A stretch of DNA of 64,000 bases, from NCBI RefSeq assembly GCF_000730385.1, contig NZ_CP008849.1, positions 1,426,001 to 1,490,000 on the forward strand. Direction: 5' to 3'. A model generated the notes under the pieces. It saw nothing but the letters and a program-made list of their open reading frames with translations. It made no database searches and was not told the DNA's origin. Position numbers and translations under genes: made by a program. Positions 15,205 through 24,388 of the stretch are shown one piece after another. Position 1 is the first letter of the stretch. Every line of letters starts with the position of its first letter. The DNA is from Alteromonas australica. GTDB taxonomy: Bacteria; Pseudomonadota; Gammaproteobacteria; Enterobacterales; Alteromonadaceae.

Positions 15205-16641
15205 ATGTTTGAAAATTTATCTGAACGCCTTGGTCAAACGCTTCGTAATGTGAGCGGCAAAGGGCGATTGACTGAAGAAAATATTAAAGAAACCTTACGC
15301 GAAGTGCGTATGGCATTACTGGAAGCCGATGTCGCTTTGCCAGTGGTTAAGTCATTTGTTGCACAAGTTAAAGAACGCGCTGTAGGTACCGAAGTCACCA
15401 AAAGCCTTAAGCCTGGTCAAGTTTTTATAAAGATTGTTCAATCTGAACTTGAATCAGTCATGGGGGAGGCTAACGAAAAGCTCAATCTCGCCACGCAACC
15501 TCCTGCTGTTATCTTAATGGCCGGTCTTCAAGGGGCAGGTAAAACCACCTCGGTGGGAAAACTCGCCAAATACTTGACCGAGCGCGAAAAGAAAAAGGTT
15601 ATGGTGGTGAGTGCCGACGTTTATCGTCCGGCAGCAATTAAGCAGTTAGAAACCCTTGCTAACGAAGTGAATGTTGCTTTTCATCCTTCAACCATTCTTC
15701 AAAAGCCTATCGACATTGTTGAAAGTGCCATCGATGAAGCAAAGAAAAATTTCTTCGATGTACTGCTCGTAGATACGGCGGGTCGATTGCATGTCGACAG
15801 TGACATGATGAATGAAATTCAAGAATTACATGGTGCGGTTAAACCGGTAGAAACCTTGTTCGTGGTTGATGCTATGACGGGGCAAGACGCGGCGAATACA
15901 GCGAAGGCGTTTAATGATGCACTTCCTCTCACTGGGGTTATCCTTACCAAAGCAGACGGTGATGCCCGAGGTGGTGCGGCGCTGTCTGTTCGCCACATTA
16001 CCGGTAAACCTATTAAATTTATCGGTATGGGCGAAAAGGTGGATGCTCTTGAGCCTTTCCACCCTGAGCGTATCGCGTCACGAATTTTAGGCATGGGCGA
16101 TGTGCTTAGCCTCATTGAAGAAGTTGAGCGCAAAGTTGATAAATCTAAAGCTGAGAAGTTGGCGAAGAAAGTCCAAAAAGGCAAAGGCTTTGACTTGCAG
16201 GACTTTAAAGATCAGCTTGAGCAAATGAAAAACATGGGCGGCATGATGGGAATGCTTGATAAGCTTCCTGGTATGGGGGCCATGACGGACAAAATCAAAG
16301 ATCAAGCGAATGACAAGCAGTTTAATCAGATGGAAGCCATCATTAACTCGATGACGCCGGCAGAACGCGCACGACCTGAAATTATCAAAGGTTCACGTAA
16401 ACGCCGTATAGCGGCAGGATCTGGTACCCAAATCCAAGATGTTAATCGTCTTTTGAAGCAGTTTACGCAAATGCAAAAAATGATGAAGAAAATGTCTGGT
16501 GGCGGAATGAAGAAAATGATGCGCCAAATGAAAGGTATGATGCCTCCAGGTGGTGGCGGATTTGGAGGTCCAGGCGGTCCAGGTGGATTCGGCGGCGGTC
16601 CAGGCGGTTTTGGCGGAGGAGGCGGTTTCCCTCCGCGTTAG
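15205..16641 (+). CDS. ffh: Signal recognition particle protein Ffh, with glycine-rich tail
   Basis: GTPase that binds 4.5S RNA and signal sequences of nascent inner-membrane proteins and delivers them to FtsY. The N domain is about 1-95. The G domain has the P-loop GLQGAGKT at 107-114, then DTAGR and TKADGDARGGA. The methionine-rich M domain (about 300-445) includes GKGFDLQDF, GSRKRR and repeated MKKM. Length is 478 aa versus about 453 in E. coli: the excess is a C-terminal tail of about 30 residues made almost only of Gly, Phe and Pro. An intrinsic terminator follows directly. The next conserved partner, rpsP, is about 19 kb away instead of adjacent. Confidence 0.97.
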   Translation: MFENLSERLGQTLRNVSGKGRLTEENIKETLREVRMALLEADVALPVVKSFVAQVKERAVGTEVTKSLKPGQVFIKIVQSELESVMGEANEKLNLATQPPAVILMAGLQGAGKTTSVGKLAKYLTEREKKKVMVVSADVYRPAAIKQLETLANEVNVAFHPSTILQKPIDIVESAIDEAKKNFFDVLLVDTAGRLHVDSDMMNEIQELHGAVKPVETLFVVDAMTGQDAANTAKAFNDALPLTGVILTKADGDARGGAALSVRHITGKPIKFIGMGEKVDALEPFHPERIASRILGMGDVLSLIEEVERKVDKSKAEKLAKKVQKGKGFDLQDFKDQLEQMKNMGGMMGMLDKLPGMGAMTDKIKDQANDKQFNQMEAIINSMTPAERARPEIIKGSRKRRIAAGSGTQIQDVNRLLKQFTQMQKMMKKMSGGGMKKMMRQMKGMMPPGGGGFGGPGGPGGFGGGPGGFGGGGGFPPR

Positions 16642-16660: not shown

Positions 16661-16695
16661 AAAACCTCAATGTCGAAAAGGCATTGAGGTTTTTT
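16661..16695 (+). terminator. Intrinsic terminator of ffh
   Basis: AAAACCTCAATG pairs with CATTGAGGTTTT over a 9-nt loop, followed by T residues. The T-tract overlaps the stop codon of the convergent lipoprotein gene. Confidence 0.88.
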
Positions 16696-17725
16696 AATCT
16701 GGGGTGCCCTTACGTACGACAAAATCCGCAAAGCGAACTTGCTCTTCGTCCGCTCTGAGTTTTTCTATTTCAGCGGTGGAGCGATAAATACCCCATTTAG
16801 GGCGAATAAAGTCTTCCTCTGACACGCCTCGCCACATGTCGATATTCGATTCATCTACATCAATAATAACAGCGTCATCACGCAATCGTGTAAGCACCAT
16901 TTTAAAAGTACCTTCTTCACTGAACGTGGATTGCACAAAGACATGTACCCACTCATCAGCAATATCGCTCCAATTGGTTTTTACCAAATAAACATCATCA
17001 GTACGGGTGCCGTCTGGGTTGTTGCCCGTACTGTGCCGCACTTGTAGTTCTTTGCCTGAACTGTCTTTTTCTACTGCTGATAATGTGATGACGGGTTGGT
17101 CGTCATTGCCATTGCTGTCATCTTCGCTATCGTTACGGGCTTTCAATTGAAAAAAGTGACTAAACTTGCTGGTGAGCGACATTTCACTGGAAACATGAAA
17201 ATACCATTCGAATTGCATGGTTTCATCTTTAAATCCCAATACCTTATTGTCGCTTTTGTCATAACTTTTAATTTCATTTCGTTGACGGTCCGATTGAACG
17301 CCATTGTTAAAATCTAAGTCTCGATGGGCTAGAAACACAAAATGATCACCTACTATATCGTCGGTATCTTCTACAATATGCGGTGTGTCTGTGTGATCTC
17401 CCTCAAAGAGGTCCGGGGCCTCAATACTACCCTCTGCGAATACGGCTTCTATGCGTTCATAAGTATTGTCTGGCGTACCGGGGCCATCGGCACTCAGTGT
17501 TACTTCACTTAAGCTGGTAAAGCCGGTTTCTACACTATTGTCTGTAGGCGGTGGCGTGGTCTCTTCGGAGGTACTGTCATCTGAAACTGGGCCTGTATTG
17601 GCCGTGCTAGTTGACCCTCCGCCACCACATCCCTTTATACAAAGCATGAGTAATGCCACTGCGATAAAATAAATAACCACTTTATATTCGTTATCAAAGG
17701 CGTTTTTTCGGGCAGGCTTTTTCAT
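16694..17725 (-). CDS. Exported lipoprotein-like protein with a probable jelly-roll (polysaccharide lyase-like) domain
   Basis: A 343-aa protein with an N-terminal hydrophobic segment ending CIKGCGGGGST, a lipobox-like site with an unusual Lys, then a Ser/Thr/Pro/Asp-rich linker to about residue 65. The rest looks beta-rich, with RQRNEIKSYD near the middle and RPKWGIYRS near the C-terminus. These remind me of the concanavalin-fold polysaccharide lyase families (heparinase-I-like, PF14099). Lyase activity is therefore a guess and the substrate is unknown. The mature part is very acidic, which fits a marine secreted protein. Monocistronic, convergent with ffh. Confidence 0.6.
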   Translation of the reverse strand: MKKPARKNAFDNEYKVVIYFIAVALLMLCIKGCGGGGSTSTANTGPVSDDSTSEETTPPPTDNSVETGFTSLSEVTLSADGPGTPDNTYERIEAVFAEGSIEAPDLFEGDHTDTPHIVEDTDDIVGDHFVFLAHRDLDFNNGVQSDRQRNEIKSYDKSDNKVLGFKDETMQFEWYFHVSSEMSLTSKFSHFFQLKARNDSEDDSNGNDDQPVITLSAVEKDSSGKELQVRHSTGNNPDGTRTDDVYLVKTNWSDIADEWVHVFVQSTFSEEGTFKMVLTRLRDDAVIIDVDESNIDMWRGVSEEDFIRPKWGIYRSTAEIEKLRADEEQVRFADFVVRKGTPD

Positions 17726-18112
17726 TTTTGTTAGTCAGATGTTTTTAATTGGTATAATAATGTTATTAAATTGGTAATAGATCAAGCGTTTTATTGGTTA
17801 GGTTTGTTAGAGGTAAGTAGGGCATGCTTGTGTTTCGTATGGCCTGAATGAATGCCTCAGCAGGTTGAGTAAAAGTCCGCAACAAGCATTGAAAAAGGGG
17901 AATGCAGGCTAAAAAGTGATCGCTTAATACTGTGAATCTCTTCTCTGCAATAAACCATCTGTGAAAACACCCGAATTCGTAATACACTCCACGGTTAGCT
18001 AAACGTTTTATTCGCCTTGTGGTTAGCATTTGCATACCGACGTTAAGGCACACTTTGCACATCATGCCCAACAGTAAATCGTGTGCACAGTGAATTTATT
18101 TATAGGAAGTAT
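17726..18112. other. Intergenic region upstream of the SMC-like operon
   Basis: A 387-bp non-coding stretch between divergent genes. A perfect TATAAT lies at 17753-17758 on the plus strand, but the best -35 (TTGTTA, 17728-17733) is 19 bases away, so a promoter there is uncertain. A 101-codon minus-strand frame at 17766-18071 has no ribosome-binding site or recognisable domain. No repeat or RNA gene was seen. Confidence 0.5.
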
Positions 18113-21100
18113 ATGGCAGGCTTAAATCGTATTATTCTTATCGACACCCACCTTCCCGGTGTGGTTGAATTAAAGCTTGATGGTCACACAAACATCTGCG
18201 GAACCAACGCTTCGGGAAAAACGACACTACAACGTTTAATCCCTGTTTTTTATGGCGAGTATCCAAGTCGTGTGGTTCCGGCCACCCGAGATAGCTTTGA
18301 ACGTTGGTACTTGCCTCGGCTTTCTAGTTTTATTATCTATGAATATACCCGCGCTGAGGGCGATTTATGTCAAGCGGTATTAAGTTCTAATGGTACAGGG
18401 GTTAATTACCGCTTAATTGGGAAGCCCTTTGCTATTGAAGACTATTTAATTGCCCAGAAAAATGGCAAGCATGCCAGTGTTAGTAGTGCTGAATTAGCCC
18501 GCGCAATGAAGCGCAACAATACGATGGTGACCAGTTTACTCACCACAAAAGATTTTAGAGCGGTTATTCAAAATGACCAAGGGGCGCTAAATCAAAGTAG
18601 CAATGCACGAGAATTACTTGGCTACGCTAAAATATTCAGCCTTTGTGCACCGTCGAAACACATGCGTCACATTGAAAAGTTGGCGAAAGCTGTGCATTCC
18701 AAAGAAGGGAAGATGGAAACCATCAAAGCGATGATCGCGGCTATTTTGGAAGAAGATGGAGTCACGCCGCCTACCTCGGGTTTAAGTCGTCACAGAGTTG
18801 ACGACTGGATTAAAGAGTGCCAGTTAATCAAGCAGTTTGATCATATTCGCCCGGAATTTAGCAAGCTTGAACAAGCCGAAATGGCGCTAACGAGCACTGA
18901 GCAAGTTCTCGCAAATTTAAAGCACAGCTTTGAGCTTGATAAAACCTTTCTCGCCGCGCGGGTGGAAAGCACGAAAAGTGCCCTAGATGACAACAGTTTT
19001 CAGCGTAAACAAACGGATAGCGAGTGGAGTGACACACGAGATCATTTAAACCAAGTCATTTCATCTGCGCGAGCCGATGTAGAAAAATTTACCAGTGAAC
19101 TTGATACCGTCGAACGTGAATTCGATAAGTGGCAAGATGAGAACATAGAGCAGCTTAAAGATGATGTTGCTAATTTATCTCAATGGTACAGCGCCCGAGA
19201 GTTAGCTGAGGGGCGTTATCAATTATTAACCGAGAAACATCAAGATATCGAATCGGCATACAACAAGCGCATCGCGGAGTTAGGTGAAAAGCTGTCTATT
19301 CGGTTAGAAGAAATGTCGGCGGCACGGCAAGAGGCGGCAGAAAACAAAGCACAGCAGCAGCAAAGTGAAAGAGAAGCCTTAAGTAAAATTAGAGATGATT
19401 ACTCGGGGCAACTAGCAACATTGCAAAGCGACTATTCAGCCACGGAAAATGCACTAAAAGTGACCGAGGCCGAACTAAAAGCGTCATTGACCAATGCAGG
19501 ATACAATGAATTTGAACAGTCGCAATTAGACTTGCTTGATGCTGCCATCAAAGAAGCTTCGATTAATGAAGATTCAGCAAGAGCGGAATTGAGACTTGCC
19601 CAACAAGCCCATAACAAAGCCATTGAATTTCGCAAAGAGTGTTCACACGCGCTAGACAAAGCGCGCCACGCTTTCCAGCAGGAAGAAAAAGCGGTAAATA
19701 AGATAAATGGCTTACTTTACCCAGGCGAAGGGTCGTTATTAGAGTTCCTACGCGCCAACGTTGATGATTGGGAAGTTTCATTAGGTAAAGTCATTCGCCC
19801 CGAACTTTTAGAGCGCACCGATCTTACCCCCACAATGCGTAGCCAAACGGCGGAAGAAGCCAGCAGTTTTATGGGCGTTGAATTAGCGCTATCGGCGCTG
19901 GAGACACCCGATTACGCATTAACCGAGCAAGCGCTGAAGCAACAGTTACAAGAAGCCGAAGTTCGTCAAGCTGCGGCATTGGCGGCGCAGAATGAATGTG
20001 AGCAGCGACTGGCAAAAGCAAATGAAGACGTTCGAAATGCTGAGCTTGTGGTGACGCAAAAAGATAACGGCGTGAAAAGTGCAGAAGCCACACGAAAACG
20101 AGCGCAACAAGACAGAGACAGCGTTTTAAGTGAATACCAACAGGCACTAACTGCCCGTAAGAAGAAAGCAAAAGCTAAACTTGAAGCGAATCAACAACAG
20201 CAAAAACAAGCTAAAGCACAATTTGAGCTTAGCCGCGACGAAATTAAAGATCAGCAACGAGAAGCTGAAACAGAACATAAGTTTCATTGGCAGCAATTAA
20301 TAGCAGATAGTGAAGCACGCCTATCACAACTCGATAGCGATATGCGCAAAGCTAAAGACAGTGCCACGCAAGATAAAAAAGATATGCAAGACTGGCTGGA
20401 AAGTGAGCTTAGTCATCGCGGTGTCGATGTGGATGAAATTGGCCAACTGAAGAAACACATCAATAAACTTAAAGATGATATTTCACGCACTGAAACCCAT
20501 CGTCACAAAGTGGCTGATTACGATCGCTGGTATAAAAATACGTTCACGACGCAAAAGGTGGTTTGGCAAGAAGGACTGTCTAAAGCGCGTAAATTACTGG
20601 GCGAATCAGAACGTAACTTAGCGGCAAAACAAAGCACTTATAAAGCAACGCGAGAGCAGTTACAAGACCTCCACGGGCAGCTAGAATCTACACTCAAAAC
20701 CGCCAGCGAATACCTAGAGCAAGTGAATACACTAAGTAAGGCATTGGCGAAGCTTACATTACAAGCGGGTGAAGAAAGTAGCGATATCAAACATGATGAT
20801 ATCAGTATTGGCCAGCGTATTTCACAAGTACAAAGCCAATTACAAGAACGGGATAACTTACTCAGTGACATCCGTGCCTACGTGGAACGCTTTGACCAAC
20901 TTATTGCCGCCCAAGCGGGTACAGGTTTGTCTGACACATGGGAGCGGGCGAGGGAAGAATGCGCCACCATTAATGCTCATGGCGTTAAAAGCTTTGATCA
21001 TCGTCGTATGGTGAAGCACTTATCGCAGCTGTTAAATGTCATTGTGCCGCAAAAACTCCAGGGCTTGCGCGAACAAGGCCGTATTTTTGGCGCAGATTTG

Positions 21101-21823
21101 TCACAATACTATTTTGTGTTGGCCGACATCGATAAACGTATTGTGACGCAAAGCAAGCGTATTACCCAAGAAGTTGATAGCGAACTCTTCTTAGATGGCG
21201 TTTCCGATTCAGCCGTTAAAATTCGTTCAAAAATAAGTGAACTAGAGTTCTGGCCAGAACTAGAATACTTCCGCAAGCTCTATCAAGATTGGATGGAGGC
21301 TGGTGCGAATACCCTGCCGGATGACGAGTACGGAATGAGTATGCGTAAGGTATTAGATATTTTAGGTCGCGCTGCACTCACAGGCGGTATTAATAAGTTG
21401 CTTGATATCGAGTTACATTTGCGTGAAGGCAATAGTGACCTAATTATTCGTACCGACCGTCAATTAAATGAGTCTTCCAGTCATGGTATGGCCTACCTTA
21501 TTCTGTGTAAGTTTCTCCTCGCATTTACCCGTTTGTTGCGTGGAGATGTGGACGCTACCGTGCATTGGCCCATAGATGAACTTGGCACGTTACACCAAAG
21601 TAACGTGAAAAAGATATTTGATGCGTGTCAGAACAATAATATCAGTGTGGTGGGGGCGTTTCCTAACCCTGAATCAGAAGTACTTACACTGTTTAGAAAT
21701 CGTTATCTCATCGACAAAGTCACTCGACAATTGCAAGTGGTTCAACCAAAAACAAGCGCCATTGCCGAGCGTTTGAAAGCCAAGCAAGTTGGTGAGCCGA
21801 AAGGTCAGGAGGCGTCATTATGA
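18113..21823 (+). CDS. SMC/MukB-like ATP-binding coiled-coil protein (DUF3584-like)
   Basis: A 1236-aa SMC-type ATPase expected to bind or move along DNA together with the next two proteins. The Walker A GTNASGKT is at 30-37 and an invariant-looking WYLPRL follows at 65-70. Long Glu/Gln/Lys/Ala-rich coiled coils (about 240-530 and 615-1000) flank a globular hinge-like region (about 530-610, with GSLLEFLRANVDDWE and GKVIRPELLERTDL). The C-terminal head has ESSSHGMAYL near 1120 in place of a canonical LSGG signature and a Walker B-like VHWPIDELG near 1150. From memory, GKT plus YLP characterise DUF3584 (PF12128). ATG at 18113 is chosen because AGGA lies 5-6 bases upstream; a GTG at 18083 lacks this. 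The stop overlaps the next start in ATGA, so translation is coupled. Biological role unknown: chromosome organisation or plasmid/phage defence are both possible. Confidence 0.85.
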   Translation: MAGLNRIILIDTHLPGVVELKLDGHTNICGTNASGKTTLQRLIPVFYGEYPSRVVPATRDSFERWYLPRLSSFIIYEYTRAEGDLCQAVLSSNGTGVNYRLIGKPFAIEDYLIAQKNGKHASVSSAELARAMKRNNTMVTSLLTTKDFRAVIQNDQGALNQSSNARELLGYAKIFSLCAPSKHMRHIEKLAKAVHSKEGKMETIKAMIAAILEEDGVTPPTSGLSRHRVDDWIKECQLIKQFDHIRPEFSKLEQAEMALTSTEQVLANLKHSFELDKTFLAARVESTKSALDDNSFQRKQTDSEWSDTRDHLNQVISSARADVEKFTSELDTVEREFDKWQDENIEQLKDDVANLSQWYSARELAEGRYQLLTEKHQDIESAYNKRIAELGEKLSIRLEEMSAARQEAAENKAQQQQSEREALSKIRDDYSGQLATLQSDYSATENALKVTEAELKASLTNAGYNEFEQSQLDLLDAAIKEASINEDSARAELRLAQQAHNKAIEFRKECSHALDKARHAFQQEEKAVNKINGLLYPGEGSLLEFLRANVDDWEVSLGKVIRPELLERTDLTPTMRSQTAEEASSFMGVELALSALETPDYALTEQALKQQLQEAEVRQAAALAAQNECEQRLAKANEDVRNAELVVTQKDNGVKSAEATRKRAQQDRDSVLSEYQQALTARKKKAKAKLEANQQQQKQAKAQFELSRDEIKDQQREAETEHKFHWQQLIADSEARLSQLDSDMRKAKDSATQDKKDMQDWLESELSHRGVDVDEIGQLKKHINKLKDDISRTETHRHKVADYDRWYKNTFTTQKVVWQEGLSKARKLLGESERNLAAKQSTYKATREQLQDLHGQLESTLKTASEYLEQVNTLSKALAKLTLQAGEESSDIKHDDISIGQRISQVQSQLQERDNLLSDIRAYVERFDQLIAAQAGTGLSDTWERAREECATINAHGVKSFDHRRMVKHLSQLLNVIVPQKLQGLREQGRIFGADLSQYYFVLADIDKRIVTQSKRITQEVDSELFLDGVSDSAVKIRSKISELEFWPELEYFRKLYQDWMEAGANTLPDDEYGMSMRKVLDILGRAALTGGINKLLDIELHLREGNSDLIIRTDRQLNESSSHGMAYLILCKFLLAFTRLLRGDVDATVHWPIDELGTLHQSNVKKIFDACQNNNISVVGAFPNPESEVLTLFRNRYLIDKVTRQLQVVQPKTSAIAERLKAKQVGEPKGQEASL

Positions 21824-22455
21824 TGACAGAACAAGGTTATGTATTGAGCGCACTATTGCAAGGTGCATTCATTTGCCAAGTGACAGACGAAGAAGCCTGG
21901 CGCTTTTTGAAAAGCAGAGACAATGCGCAACAACTTGAACCTCATTTAAATTTATTGAACCGTACGTTATCAACCACCGCTGACGGCGATGTTTTCTTCG
22001 CCAGTTACCTCACTATTGGGGAACCAGAGCGGAAAGTTCTGACACAGCAATTTCAGGACACTGCATCAAATTTGATCCCCTTGGTTGAATGGCTTTTATT
22101 GGTTCAACAGGCCAGCGAGTCAGATATGCCGGTGACTATGGGCAATGCTATTCGTTTGAATGAGCTACAAACCACCATCGAAGATACGCCTGCGTATGCA
22201 GAGCAGTTAGAGAAAATTTCTCGTTATCGCATGTTTGGTTCAACCAGTGTCAATCTTGACGGACAGCTTAAACAAGTCTTTAAGCGGCTGACAGAATTAG
22301 GTTATTTGTCGAAACCTAACTCGGAGAAGCAAATTTATTTAGCCACAGGTAAGGTGGAACATCTTTATGAGATGATTCGTTTTATCGATGAAACGGAAGC
22401 CCTGAGTTTATCAGAACAGGCGGAGGCGGCTATTTCGCAAGGAAGCTTGCTATGA
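21820..22455 (+). CDS. MukE/MksE-like accessory subunit of the SMC-like complex
   Basis: A 211-aa protein without signal peptide or membrane segment. It begins with helical sequence (GYVLSALLQGAFICQVTDEEAWRFL). Its C-terminal half resembles a winged helix (LKQVFKRLTELGYLSKPNSEKQIYLATGKVEHLYEMIRFI). Size and gene position match MukE, MksE or JetB, the dimeric winged-helix subunit that joins the kleisin of MukBEF-type machines. Sequence identity to those families is not obvious by eye, so the call rests mainly on context: it overlaps the SMC-like gene and the following gene by 4 bases each (ATGA). Confidence 0.62.
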   Translation: MMTEQGYVLSALLQGAFICQVTDEEAWRFLKSRDNAQQLEPHLNLLNRTLSTTADGDVFFASYLTIGEPERKVLTQQFQDTASNLIPLVEWLLLVQQASESDMPVTMGNAIRLNELQTTIEDTPAYAEQLEKISRYRMFGSTSVNLDGQLKQVFKRLTELGYLSKPNSEKQIYLATGKVEHLYEMIRFIDETEALSLSEQAEAAISQGSLL

Positions 22456-23672
22456 GCCAAGTTCTTATTCAAGCCGGTACAAAGCTACTCAATGCCCTAG
22501 GGCGGCATAGTGAGCTTATTATGCAGGCTTATATCAACGGCACTGTTAACGAGCAAGATTACTCGCCCAAAATCCTTGAGCAACTGGTGCAATTGGGTGT
22601 GCTTTGGCGGCCAGACCCTCAAAGTGAGTTACGCTTAAAAAGCGCGGTAAGAACCTTACTAGAAGGCAGTTTACAAGATGAGCGGAATCGCACCATCAAT
22701 GCCAATATTGGAGCCTCGCTGGCAAGCCTTAAAACCTTAGCGGAACATTACAAAGAGTCACTTCACTATAATAAATATAATGAAGCCGCTGCTTATATGA
22801 GCGATTTGACTGAGCATGTTTATCAGCTATCAGAGTCGCTTTCAAACAGTGTTCGAGTCATGTTTAGCCGCATCAACAATGAATTTGGTTACGTGTCATC
22901 GGTTGATGCAAAAATACGGGAAAACGAGTTAGCGCAAGGGCAGGTCACAGATTTACTGTCTCAATTAGAATGCTTCCGTTTTGATGAATTGAGTGAAATT
23001 GCAGGCTCAAATAGAGAGCTTCGACACTTGCTGGTGGTTTCTCTTCAGCAACGGTTTTCAAAGGCCGCACAGGAACTGTCTGTGGTACAAGCAAGGTTGC
23101 TCGACCTGCTGGGCCGTTTTAGAGAGTTTAGAGGGCGCACTCGATTGCTCAAAGGGTATTTGTTGCATATGGAGCAGCAACCGGATTTTGTTCCAGGCAA
23201 TTATGCGAATTTAACCCACGTGCCTGTATTGTTTAATCAAACCGCCAGTATTATTAAGCCTGCTTCGGTTGACGTGAATAGCGTTGAGCATGAAGAAGAT
23301 TACCATAGTATGGTTGCTTCATTATCCCATATTCACAAGCGTCAAGGACAGCAAGAGGCCGAGAATAAACAACAGGATATTGACGTAACAGAGCAGTCAA
23401 CAGTGGCGCTTGAGAAGGATCCACTGCAAGCGGCAGTAGAGGAATACTTCTGTGATGTTATTGACTCAGGGCAGCCTAAAACTGCGCTGACCTATTACCA
23501 AGAGAAAGCGTTAAGTTTCGATAAAGAGGTATGGATTTATCAGGTAATTGGGGGGTATCAAGCCTTAGCCGACCAGGAAAAACAATTTTTTGCGCTAGAT
23601 CCTCATGGAGAAAACGATAAAACCTATACGGGCAACTTCTACATCAATGATATAACGCTGGGCCTCCGTTAA
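22452..23672 (+). CDS. MukF/kleisin-like subunit of the SMC-like complex
   Basis: A 406-aa, mainly helical soluble protein. The N-terminal part (about 1-75) looks like a winged helix (YINGTVNEQDYSPKILEQLVQLGVLWRPDPQSELRLK). A long helical middle (about 75-260) includes LSESLSNSVRVMFSRINNEFGYV and RLLDLLGRFREFRGRTRLLKGYLL. An acidic linker of about 50 residues follows, then a C-terminal domain (about 320-406). Winged helix, helical bundle, acidic linker and C-terminal domain is the order seen in MukF and related kleisins, which bridge SMC heads. Assigned from architecture and operon position, not by clear motif identity. A strong hairpin begins 7 bases past the stop, and no Wadjet-type JetD nuclease follows. 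Confidence 0.6.
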   Translation: MSQVLIQAGTKLLNALGRHSELIMQAYINGTVNEQDYSPKILEQLVQLGVLWRPDPQSELRLKSAVRTLLEGSLQDERNRTINANIGASLASLKTLAEHYKESLHYNKYNEAAAYMSDLTEHVYQLSESLSNSVRVMFSRINNEFGYVSSVDAKIRENELAQGQVTDLLSQLECFRFDELSEIAGSNRELRHLLVVSLQQRFSKAAQELSVVQARLLDLLGRFREFRGRTRLLKGYLLHMEQQPDFVPGNYANLTHVPVLFNQTASIIKPASVDVNSVEHEEDYHSMVASLSHIHKRQGQQEAENKQQDIDVTEQSTVALEKDPLQAAVEEYFCDVIDSGQPKTALTYYQEKALSFDKEVWIYQVIGGYQALADQEKQFFALDPHGENDKTYTGNFYINDITLGLR

Positions 23673-23678
23673 ATTCAA

Positions 23679-23714
23679 GGCGCGCTGCATGTTAATCGCT
23701 AATGGTAGCGCGCC
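23679..23714 (+). repeat. GC-rich hairpin at the 3' end of the SMC-like operon
   Basis: GGCGCGCT (23679-23686) and AGCGCGCC (23707-23714) are perfect inverted repeats, with a further CAT/ATG pair inside a 20-nt loop. No T-tract follows, so it is either a transcript-end stabiliser or a weak or Rho-assisted terminator. Confidence 0.5.
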
Positions 23715-23768
23715 ACCCATTAGTCTGAAACATTGTACAACCCTAGCCAAAATGATGAGTTTCTCTGC

Positions 23769-23796
23769 TTGGCTTTTCAATGAAATCTTCTATACT
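23769..23796 (+). promoter_or_regulatory. Candidate sigma70 promoter of the TerB-like/hydrolase operon
   Basis: TTGGCT (23769-23774) and TATACT (23791-23796) with a 16-bp spacer, placing a transcript start near 23803, about 160 bases upstream of the TerB-like ATG. Confidence 0.4.
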
Positions 23797-23822
23797 ATTT
23801 ACTCGTTTTTACAAAAACTTAA

Positions 23823-23848
23823 CATGATGAACTAAATTGTTCATCATG
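23823..23848. repeat. Perfect 10-bp inverted repeat upstream of the TerB-like gene
   Basis: CATGATGAAC and GTTCATCATG are exact reverse complements separated by TAAATT. No T-tract follows. It lies about 20 bases downstream of the candidate promoter, a typical operator position, but could also fold in the 5' leader. Confidence 0.55.
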
Positions 23849-23965
23849 ACGTAATACTGCTGTCAACGAGCTCAGCTAATTTGTTGGCACAGCGTAAAAC
23901 AAGTGTCTCGCAGGATGCGGACAATGTAGTGGTACCGGTGCGTACGGTACGAAGGGGATACAAAT

Positions 23966-24388
23966 ATGCAACTTTCACAGCAACAAAGCTTTAATCAAGC
24001 GCTAATCAAACTATCAGTATTGTTATATCAAGTAGACGGTATGGTAACGCTATCAGAGCAAGATTACCTAAATTCAGTGGTTGAAGAATTAGACTGGCAA
24101 AGCCCAATATGTCCTGAAGCGTTTCTGACTGACACCATCTATCAAACACGCAACGCCATTGATACTGGTGATACGTTGCAATACATGCGGAGTTTAAAAG
24201 ACGACCTTCTTTATGACGCAGAGAAAACCTTAGAAGTCGCCATGGCGATAACAGGGGTGGATGGAGAGCGAAGTGAAGAAGAAACGGAGCTTTTATCTGT
24301 CCTTACCCATAAACTTCTCGCAAAAGCGTTAGTATCGGGTAAAAATGGTGACCATAATCATCACGGAGATACGATTCGTCATCAATGA
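23966..24388 (+). CDS. TerB-like helical protein
   Basis: A 140-aa soluble, all-helical protein resembling the TerB / tellurite-resistance family. It has two similar helical halves: one around LIKLSVLLYQVDGMVTLSEQDYL and one around VAMAITGVDGERSEEETELL. The acidic D-G-x-x-x-x-E loops are the conserved TerB pattern, which in KP-TerB binds divalent metal. No other ter genes are nearby, so tellurite resistance is not implied. Its stop overlaps the start of the downstream lipoprotein hydrolase by ATGA, so the two are translationally coupled. The C-terminus is His-rich (HNHHGD), of unknown meaning. Confidence 0.65.
   Translation: MQLSQQQSFNQALIKLSVLLYQVDGMVTLSEQDYLNSVVEELDWQSPICPEAFLTDTIYQTRNAIDTGDTLQYMRSLKDDLLYDAEKTLEVAMAITGVDGERSEEETELLSVLTHKLLAKALVSGKNGDHNHHGDTIRHQ

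Follow-up and report, generated by a model that had tools for sequence, protein, structure and literature searches.

In silico analysis of a 64,000-nt stretch of the Alteromonas australica genome (contig NZ_CP008849.1, positions 1,426,001 to 1,490,000), hereafter called the window and used as the reference for coordinates, revealed three overlapping genes whose products resemble the subunits of a MukBEF- or MksBEF-type SMC complex. These genes are designated B, E and F below, and G refers to a fourth, nuclease-like gene that follows them in many relatives. Their sizes and their coupling through ATGA overlaps at both the B/E and the E/F junctions are as proposed in an earlier note made from the sequence alone; the start at 18113 also stands, while the third gene ends at 23672 and not at 23714. 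B is taken to begin at the ATG in 18113, an alternative GTG at 18083 giving a product longer by 10 amino acids. The invariant residues listed are those of the 108 B proteins used for the tree described below.

18113..21823, + strand: B, DUF3584 SMC-like ATPase of 1236 amino acids, matched by PF12128 over its full length, with an N-terminal head resembling that of canonical JetC
18200..18223, + strand: Walker A motif of B, GTNASGKT, with G30, N32, G35 and K36 invariant in 108/108 B proteins
21473..21499, + strand: ABC signature of B, SSSHGMAYL, with S1123 and G1125 invariant in 108/108
21560..21580, + strand: Walker B motif of B, VHWPIDE, with D1155 and E1156 invariant in 108/108
21820..22455, + strand: E, MksE/MukE-like (KITE) protein of 211 amino acids, above the cut-off of PF21980 (MksE)
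22452..23672, + strand: F, probable kleisin (MukF/MksF/JetA-like) of 406 amino acids, so named from its position, length, constant linkage and helical prediction
23673..23965, no strand: gap, corresponding to the site of the nuclease gene G in some relatives of the same genus (L237, L238 and L243, arranged B-E-F-G-terB)

The assignment of B to DUF3584, already suspected from its GKT and YLP motifs, was borne out by a match to PF12128 of 1057.8 bits (cut-off 31) covering model positions 1-1191 of 1191. Among the literature matches listed for DUF3584, no title concerns its function. The N-terminal head of B aligned with canonical JetC (hhalign E 4e-10 over 45 columns; E 1.7e-14 in global mode) and its C-terminal head weakly with E. 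coli MukB (E 4e-4, probability 34%, 94 columns). The JetC1 model of PADLOC gave B 17.4 bits only, and no JetA or JetB model of that collection matched the window proteins. In Corynebacterium glutamicum, the JetD1 model finds a match and PF12128 none.

Judged from its sequence, E is an MksE/MukE-like KITE protein. It scored 29.8 bits against PF21980 (cut-off 27), a family matched at E<=0.01 by 14 of the 16 E family members, and aligned with canonical JetB (hhalign E 6.2e-5, probability 65%, 186 columns), the alignment with MukE being unconvincing (E 0.026). With a predicted structure of E (predicted local distance difference test, pLDDT, 62), the ten best Foldseek matches were all MukBEF or MukEF entries (E 0.016-0.13). 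F is probably a kleisin, a designation drawn from its position, length and constant linkage; it is predicted to be helical, with a low-confidence stretch at residues 221-322; a JetABCD entry ranks ninth among its Foldseek matches, and ranks 1, 3, 5 and 11 are taken by MukBEF, MukEF or MukF entries. The MukE- and MukF-like character that the earlier note gave to the two small proteins is thus supported by a family match for E and, for F, retained as probable without one; the method used also finds no match between JetA and MukF.

The constant linkage of the three genes, put forward as a check, was found in 18 of 18 genome-contig loci, all with the same order. These loci are those of the named relatives of B, 17 from Alteromonas and one from an Alteromonadaceae metagenome-assembled genome, with 75-88% identity, and this conservation places the trio beyond chance. 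A DUF3584 ATPase occurs in all 59 Alteromonas genomes, as one full-length frame in 58 of them, and the B-E-F trio is a core locus of the genus. In the remaining genome (G388, locus L232), B is split into two open reading frames (ORFs), either by natural decay or by a sequencing error. One further genome, G423, carries a second and distant B-E-F-G copy (L231, on G423:C112) in addition to its core B-E-F locus. Among 369 genomes spread over the class, DUF3584 was detected in 17, with 10 over the family cut-off, the source genome included.

Relatives were further found on 43 plasmid records and in one phage, Dolichospermum phage Dfl-JY45. The loci read outside Alteromonadaceae comprise 14 of the 43 plasmid loci, the phage locus and six genome loci from other families, and in all 21 the trio is followed by the fourth gene, G, which belongs to DUF7281 (L063, a fragment of B with neither E nor F, stands outside the 21). 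G exceeded the DUF7281 cut-off in eight of the eight cases scanned, and its conserved K, E, N, R, D and D, among which are the E, D and D of TOPRIM, are invariant in 35 of 35 proteins. When 13 G proteins were compared with PADLOC at E<=0.01, they hit 16 families between them, every one JetD; the phage G, scanned singly, had no PADLOC match at E<=0.1. A G profile aligned with canonical JetD (hhalign E 3.5e-6, probability 88%) over the TOPRIM region only (78 columns). G is therefore predicted to be a JetD-like TOPRIM nuclease, and would cut DNA. No paper in the library searched mentions DUF7281. Six B, E and F proteins of plasmid and phage origin had no match to JetA, JetB or JetC models at E<=0.1, and overall this lineage is scarcely recognised by the Wadjet models of PADLOC-DB 2.0.0 with which the proteins were scanned.

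Several of the plasmid B-E-F-G loci lie near genes for HerA/DUF4297, AbiEi, a methyltransferase, an antitoxin, RES/Xre or TnpB, and those with defence- or mobile-element-like neighbourhoods are the following.

L250, 917-6063: plasmid locus with such a neighbourhood
L249, 3083-14827: the same
L046, 1070-3223: the same

In another, from a Vibrio campbellii plasmid (L247), the annotation divides both B and F into two pieces, which again may reflect natural decay or a sequencing error.

No G or JetD was found in the source genome, a single contig of 4.31 Mb, with the DUF7281 and DUF2399 profiles, one JetD1 model and our own G profile; for DUF2399 and DUF7281, 14 control genomes searched in the same way gave no match either. 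DUF7281 was matched in 24 of 147 Alteromonadaceae genomes (20 over the cut-off); of the 59 Alteromonas genomes, 4 matched the G profile and 55 did not, so both searches are able to detect the gene where it is present. The gap downstream of F contained no G remnant detectable by tblastn with seven G proteins. The earlier note had correctly described an ATPase-first order with no JetD or TOPRIM gene behind it. The next gene is TerB-like and starts 294 bp after F. With regard to its question of whether the ATPase would group with JetC beside a nuclease partner, the relatives have the nuclease and the source genome does not.

These features point to B-E-F(-G) as a four-gene system that resembles Wadjet/MksBEFG but has its genes arranged differently. 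It would lie in or beside that group, so the earlier suggestion of an uncharacterised type is not borne out in full. As in Wadjet (JetABCD, MksBEFG), an SMC-like ATPase, a KITE-like protein and a probable kleisin are encoded in one operon, to which relatives add a JetD-related TOPRIM gene; the window differs by its lack of a nuclease and by its B-E-F-(G) order instead of F-E-B-G, the order of mks operons being given as mksFEBG (PMC10123090). A parallel is offered by Pseudomonas aeruginosa, reported to have both SMC and MksBEF (PMC7485682), a nuclease-free MukBEF-like complex beside SMC in the same cell that is described as having likely arisen by loss of JetD (PMC10586767). MukBEF and several further members of the Wadjet group are also reported without MksG/JetD (PMC7617805), and Data S1 of that paper may include the present lineage. 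No paper in the library searched mentions MksB together with Alteromonas, and two there mention both Alteromonas and Wadjet.

The complex of E. coli resembles the trio in being nuclease-free, in the weak alignment of the B C-terminal head and in the structural matches of E, but its gene order is reversed and the source genome keeps SMC, a 1179-amino-acid ORF having SMC_N matches at both ends. MukBEF proper was rejected: the MukB domain PF04310 was absent from the source genome and, among the 147 family genomes, reached E<=0.001 in three and the cut-off in none.

The distribution of G was examined on a FastTree tree of 108 B proteins, drawn from 111 loci that carry the trio, with L232 (split ATPase) and L056 and L164 (both taken as duplicates) left out here and in later counts; G556 is not in the data set and six plasmid loci fetched later are outside the 108. 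G is present in 35 rows and absent from 73; it occurs in 15 of 15 rows outside Alteromonadaceae and in 20 of 93 within. Its presence requires at least 10 changes on this tree, compared with a mean near 30 when shuffled. Closely related loci differ by G in two genera: in one, L183 has it while L180 and L182 do not (B 93-94% identical), and in another, L219 has it while L220 does not (B 85% identical). In both sets, blastp paired the neighbours on either side of the operon with their counterparts. In L212 a remnant of G persists, with residues 5-72 and 227-285 kept and the catalytic middle (73-226) gone. The best reading of these sequence comparisons is that Alteromonadaceae lost G on repeated occasions and retained B, E and F.

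Where G is absent, the remaining genes are still under purifying selection. In nine pairs of loci both lacking G, the ratio of nonsynonymous to synonymous substitution rates (dN/dS) of B, E and F ranged from 0 to 0.086, mostly 0.01-0.04, where dS was unsaturated; these ratios are rough, dS being saturated in several pairs, which gave no ratio, and above 1 in many. The ATPase motifs are complete in 73 of 73 loci without G. Pairs having G and yielding a ratio gave 0.003-0.061 for B, E and F and looser values, 0.09 and 0.21, for G itself. Between L207 and L208, identity is 95-97% for B, E and F and 58% for G. More generally, the divergence of G is many times that of its partner genes, although its catalytic residues are fixed (L207, L208, L221-L224). 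Since the identities of G and B rank alike (Spearman 0.91 over 136 family pairs), G looks fast-evolving rather than freely swapped.

Taken together, B-E-F is probably a MukBEF/MksBEF-like SMC complex derived from a nuclease-bearing four-gene system, which in Alteromonas would most likely serve as a second condensin beside SMC. The complex would contain the DUF3584 ATPase in two copies, a dimer of the MksE-like KITE protein and a kleisin, and would use ATP to hold, and probably to extrude, DNA loops. Its ancestor would have belonged to the Wadjet/MksBEFG group and had all four genes, B-E-F-G, as do the systems found on plasmids, in a phage and in other genomes; in Alteromonadaceae, G would have been lost several times with B-E-F retained, and the Alteromonas trio would have acquired a chromosomal role. 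For a motor that lacks a nuclease and yet occurs in every Alteromonas genome examined, a housekeeping role is the best explanation.

Several observations weigh against this interpretation. B was matched in only 73 of the 147 Alteromonadaceae genomes, two of these matches being weak, which makes the complex dispensable for the family at large. B, E and F are equally constrained in pairs with and without G, so a nuclease-free role does not follow from constraint alone. The loss counts (18 losses if gains are forbidden) come from a FastTree tree whose branches are long. In Alteromonas itself, the loci with G before terB (ffh lying upstream in L237 and L238) have B proteins of a different lineage from those without: B of L237 and L238 does not fall into a single clade with B of the other Alteromonas loci (approximately unbiased test, p 0.0007; L243 not in the tree). 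This indicates allele replacement and not simple deletion, and alleles at this site seem, from their sequences, to have been exchanged between lineages. At the protein level, the JetC likeness of B amounts to ca. 50 residues in the local alignment; with larger alignments the match of E to JetB falls to E 4e-4 and a probability down to 35%, and none of its Foldseek matches reached E<=0.001, with template-modelling scores by query below 0.3. For F, neither MukF nor JetA gave a sequence match and no family a convincing one (best E 0.045); its model is poor (pLDDT 47), and its Foldseek matches (E 0.025-0.17, none E<=0.001) stand amid unrelated helical proteins.

The strongest competing explanation, which appears rather unlikely, is that the trio is still directed against plasmids or phages, either compacting or silencing foreign DNA or relying on a nuclease encoded elsewhere. 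It draws on the four-gene plasmid and phage relatives, some beside HerA/DUF4297 or AbiEi, on the patchiness of the trio in the family and on the similar constraint with and without G. Against it, the trio is present in all 59 Alteromonas genomes, and terB is the next gene in 17 of the 17 genome-contig loci with downstream flank available. Typical defence genes are patchy in distribution, unlike the Alteromonas trio. Nor did the source genome have a match elsewhere to the JetD1, DUF2399, DUF7281 or G profiles. The plasmid-defence machine imagined in the earlier note fits the four-gene relatives better than the three-gene version of the window.

That an ancestral three-gene condensin gained G repeatedly, instead of losing it, is considered improbable. 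Unordered parsimony, with its 10 changes, does not fix the direction, and the much faster divergence of G relative to B, E and F would suit such gains; on the other hand, G is present in every locus read outside the family, a root with G costs 10 changes and one without it 12, both ends of G survive in L212 without the middle, and the identities of G follow those of B. A decaying defence remnant with no present function, to which the loss of one subunit and the split ATPase gene of G388 might be ascribed, is very hard to reconcile with the low dN/dS of the nine pairs without G, the intact ATPase residues of all 73 loci without G and the full-length open frame of B in 58 of the 59 Alteromonas genomes.

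The second-condensin interpretation leaves room for a more specific proposal relating to the C-terminus of E.

22438..22452, + strand: C-terminal tail of E, QGSLL, resembling a sliding-clamp-binding motif (lead only), present in 101/108 E proteins

The pattern used, Q-x-x-[LMIF]-[LFIVMY] within the last nine residues, is found in 91 of 93 Alteromonadaceae loci and 10 of 15 outside, in 29 of 35 loci with G and 72 of 73 without; other tails read QGDMF, QEAMF or QESLF. Elsewhere it is rare (B 0/108, F 0/108, G 3/35, other ORFs 11/1137), and it was absent from seven canonical JetB proteins and from the one E. coli MukE compared. The motif occurs in 7 of 12 clusters at 40% identity, most rows being close relatives, and in none of the six further plasmid loci fetched afterwards, one of which ends in TGRLF and one in QGEFNF. 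The clamp-binding consensus is given as QL[S/D]LF or QxxLF, with positions 1, 4 and 5 critical and F in the consensus (PMC12309361); position 5 of the E tail is F in only 14 of 108 proteins, which counts against the lead. The tail may thus be regarded as a weaker lead, for Alteromonadaceae only. A tentative possibility is that the Alteromonadaceae complex is a defence-derived condensin whose E tail binds DnaN, so that the motor would be loaded on newly replicated DNA; if so, a machine that once sensed foreign DNA under replication would, on losing its nuclease, have become an organiser of the chromosome. Among the literature matches listed, no paper contained both Wadjet and clamp terms, although the idea may still be published.

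The trio is flanked by two landmarks that recur in related loci.

15205..16641, + strand: ffh (SRP54), upstream landmark, identified by Pfam
23966..24388, + strand: TerB-like gene, downstream landmark and probably no partner (Pfam 26.3 bits, cut-off 24.4)

In 17 of 18 genome-contig loci, ffh lies upstream of B at a distance of 8 kb or less. Between it and the trio, the window contains a polysaccharide-lyase-like gene below the Pfam cut-off (16694-17725 and 17766-18071); in Alteromonas loci the gene content of this interval is variable, often including an ORF of 690-700 amino acids. TerB was rejected as a fourth subunit: related genes occur away from B or in genomes where B was not matched (G426, G430, G476, G478, G488, G510, G537, G539, G560 and G562), although TerB does follow F in 33 of 76 loci without G (of these 76, L044 is cut at a contig end). 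An unrecognised fourth gene was also rejected, as the gene downstream of F, apart from TerB, varies among these 76 loci.

Loss of the nuclease is not in itself new: it has been put forward for MksBEF of P. aeruginosa and remarked on in the case of MukBEF. A past as defence systems has been suggested for both complexes (PMC10586767). The present data point to a Wadjet-like plasmid lineage barely recognised by the PADLOC models scanned, and provide DUF3584 and DUF7281 with a concrete functional hypothesis. In Alteromonadaceae, close loci with and without the nuclease occur even within one genus, so that the change from DNA cutting to housekeeping may be studied directly in these marine bacteria.

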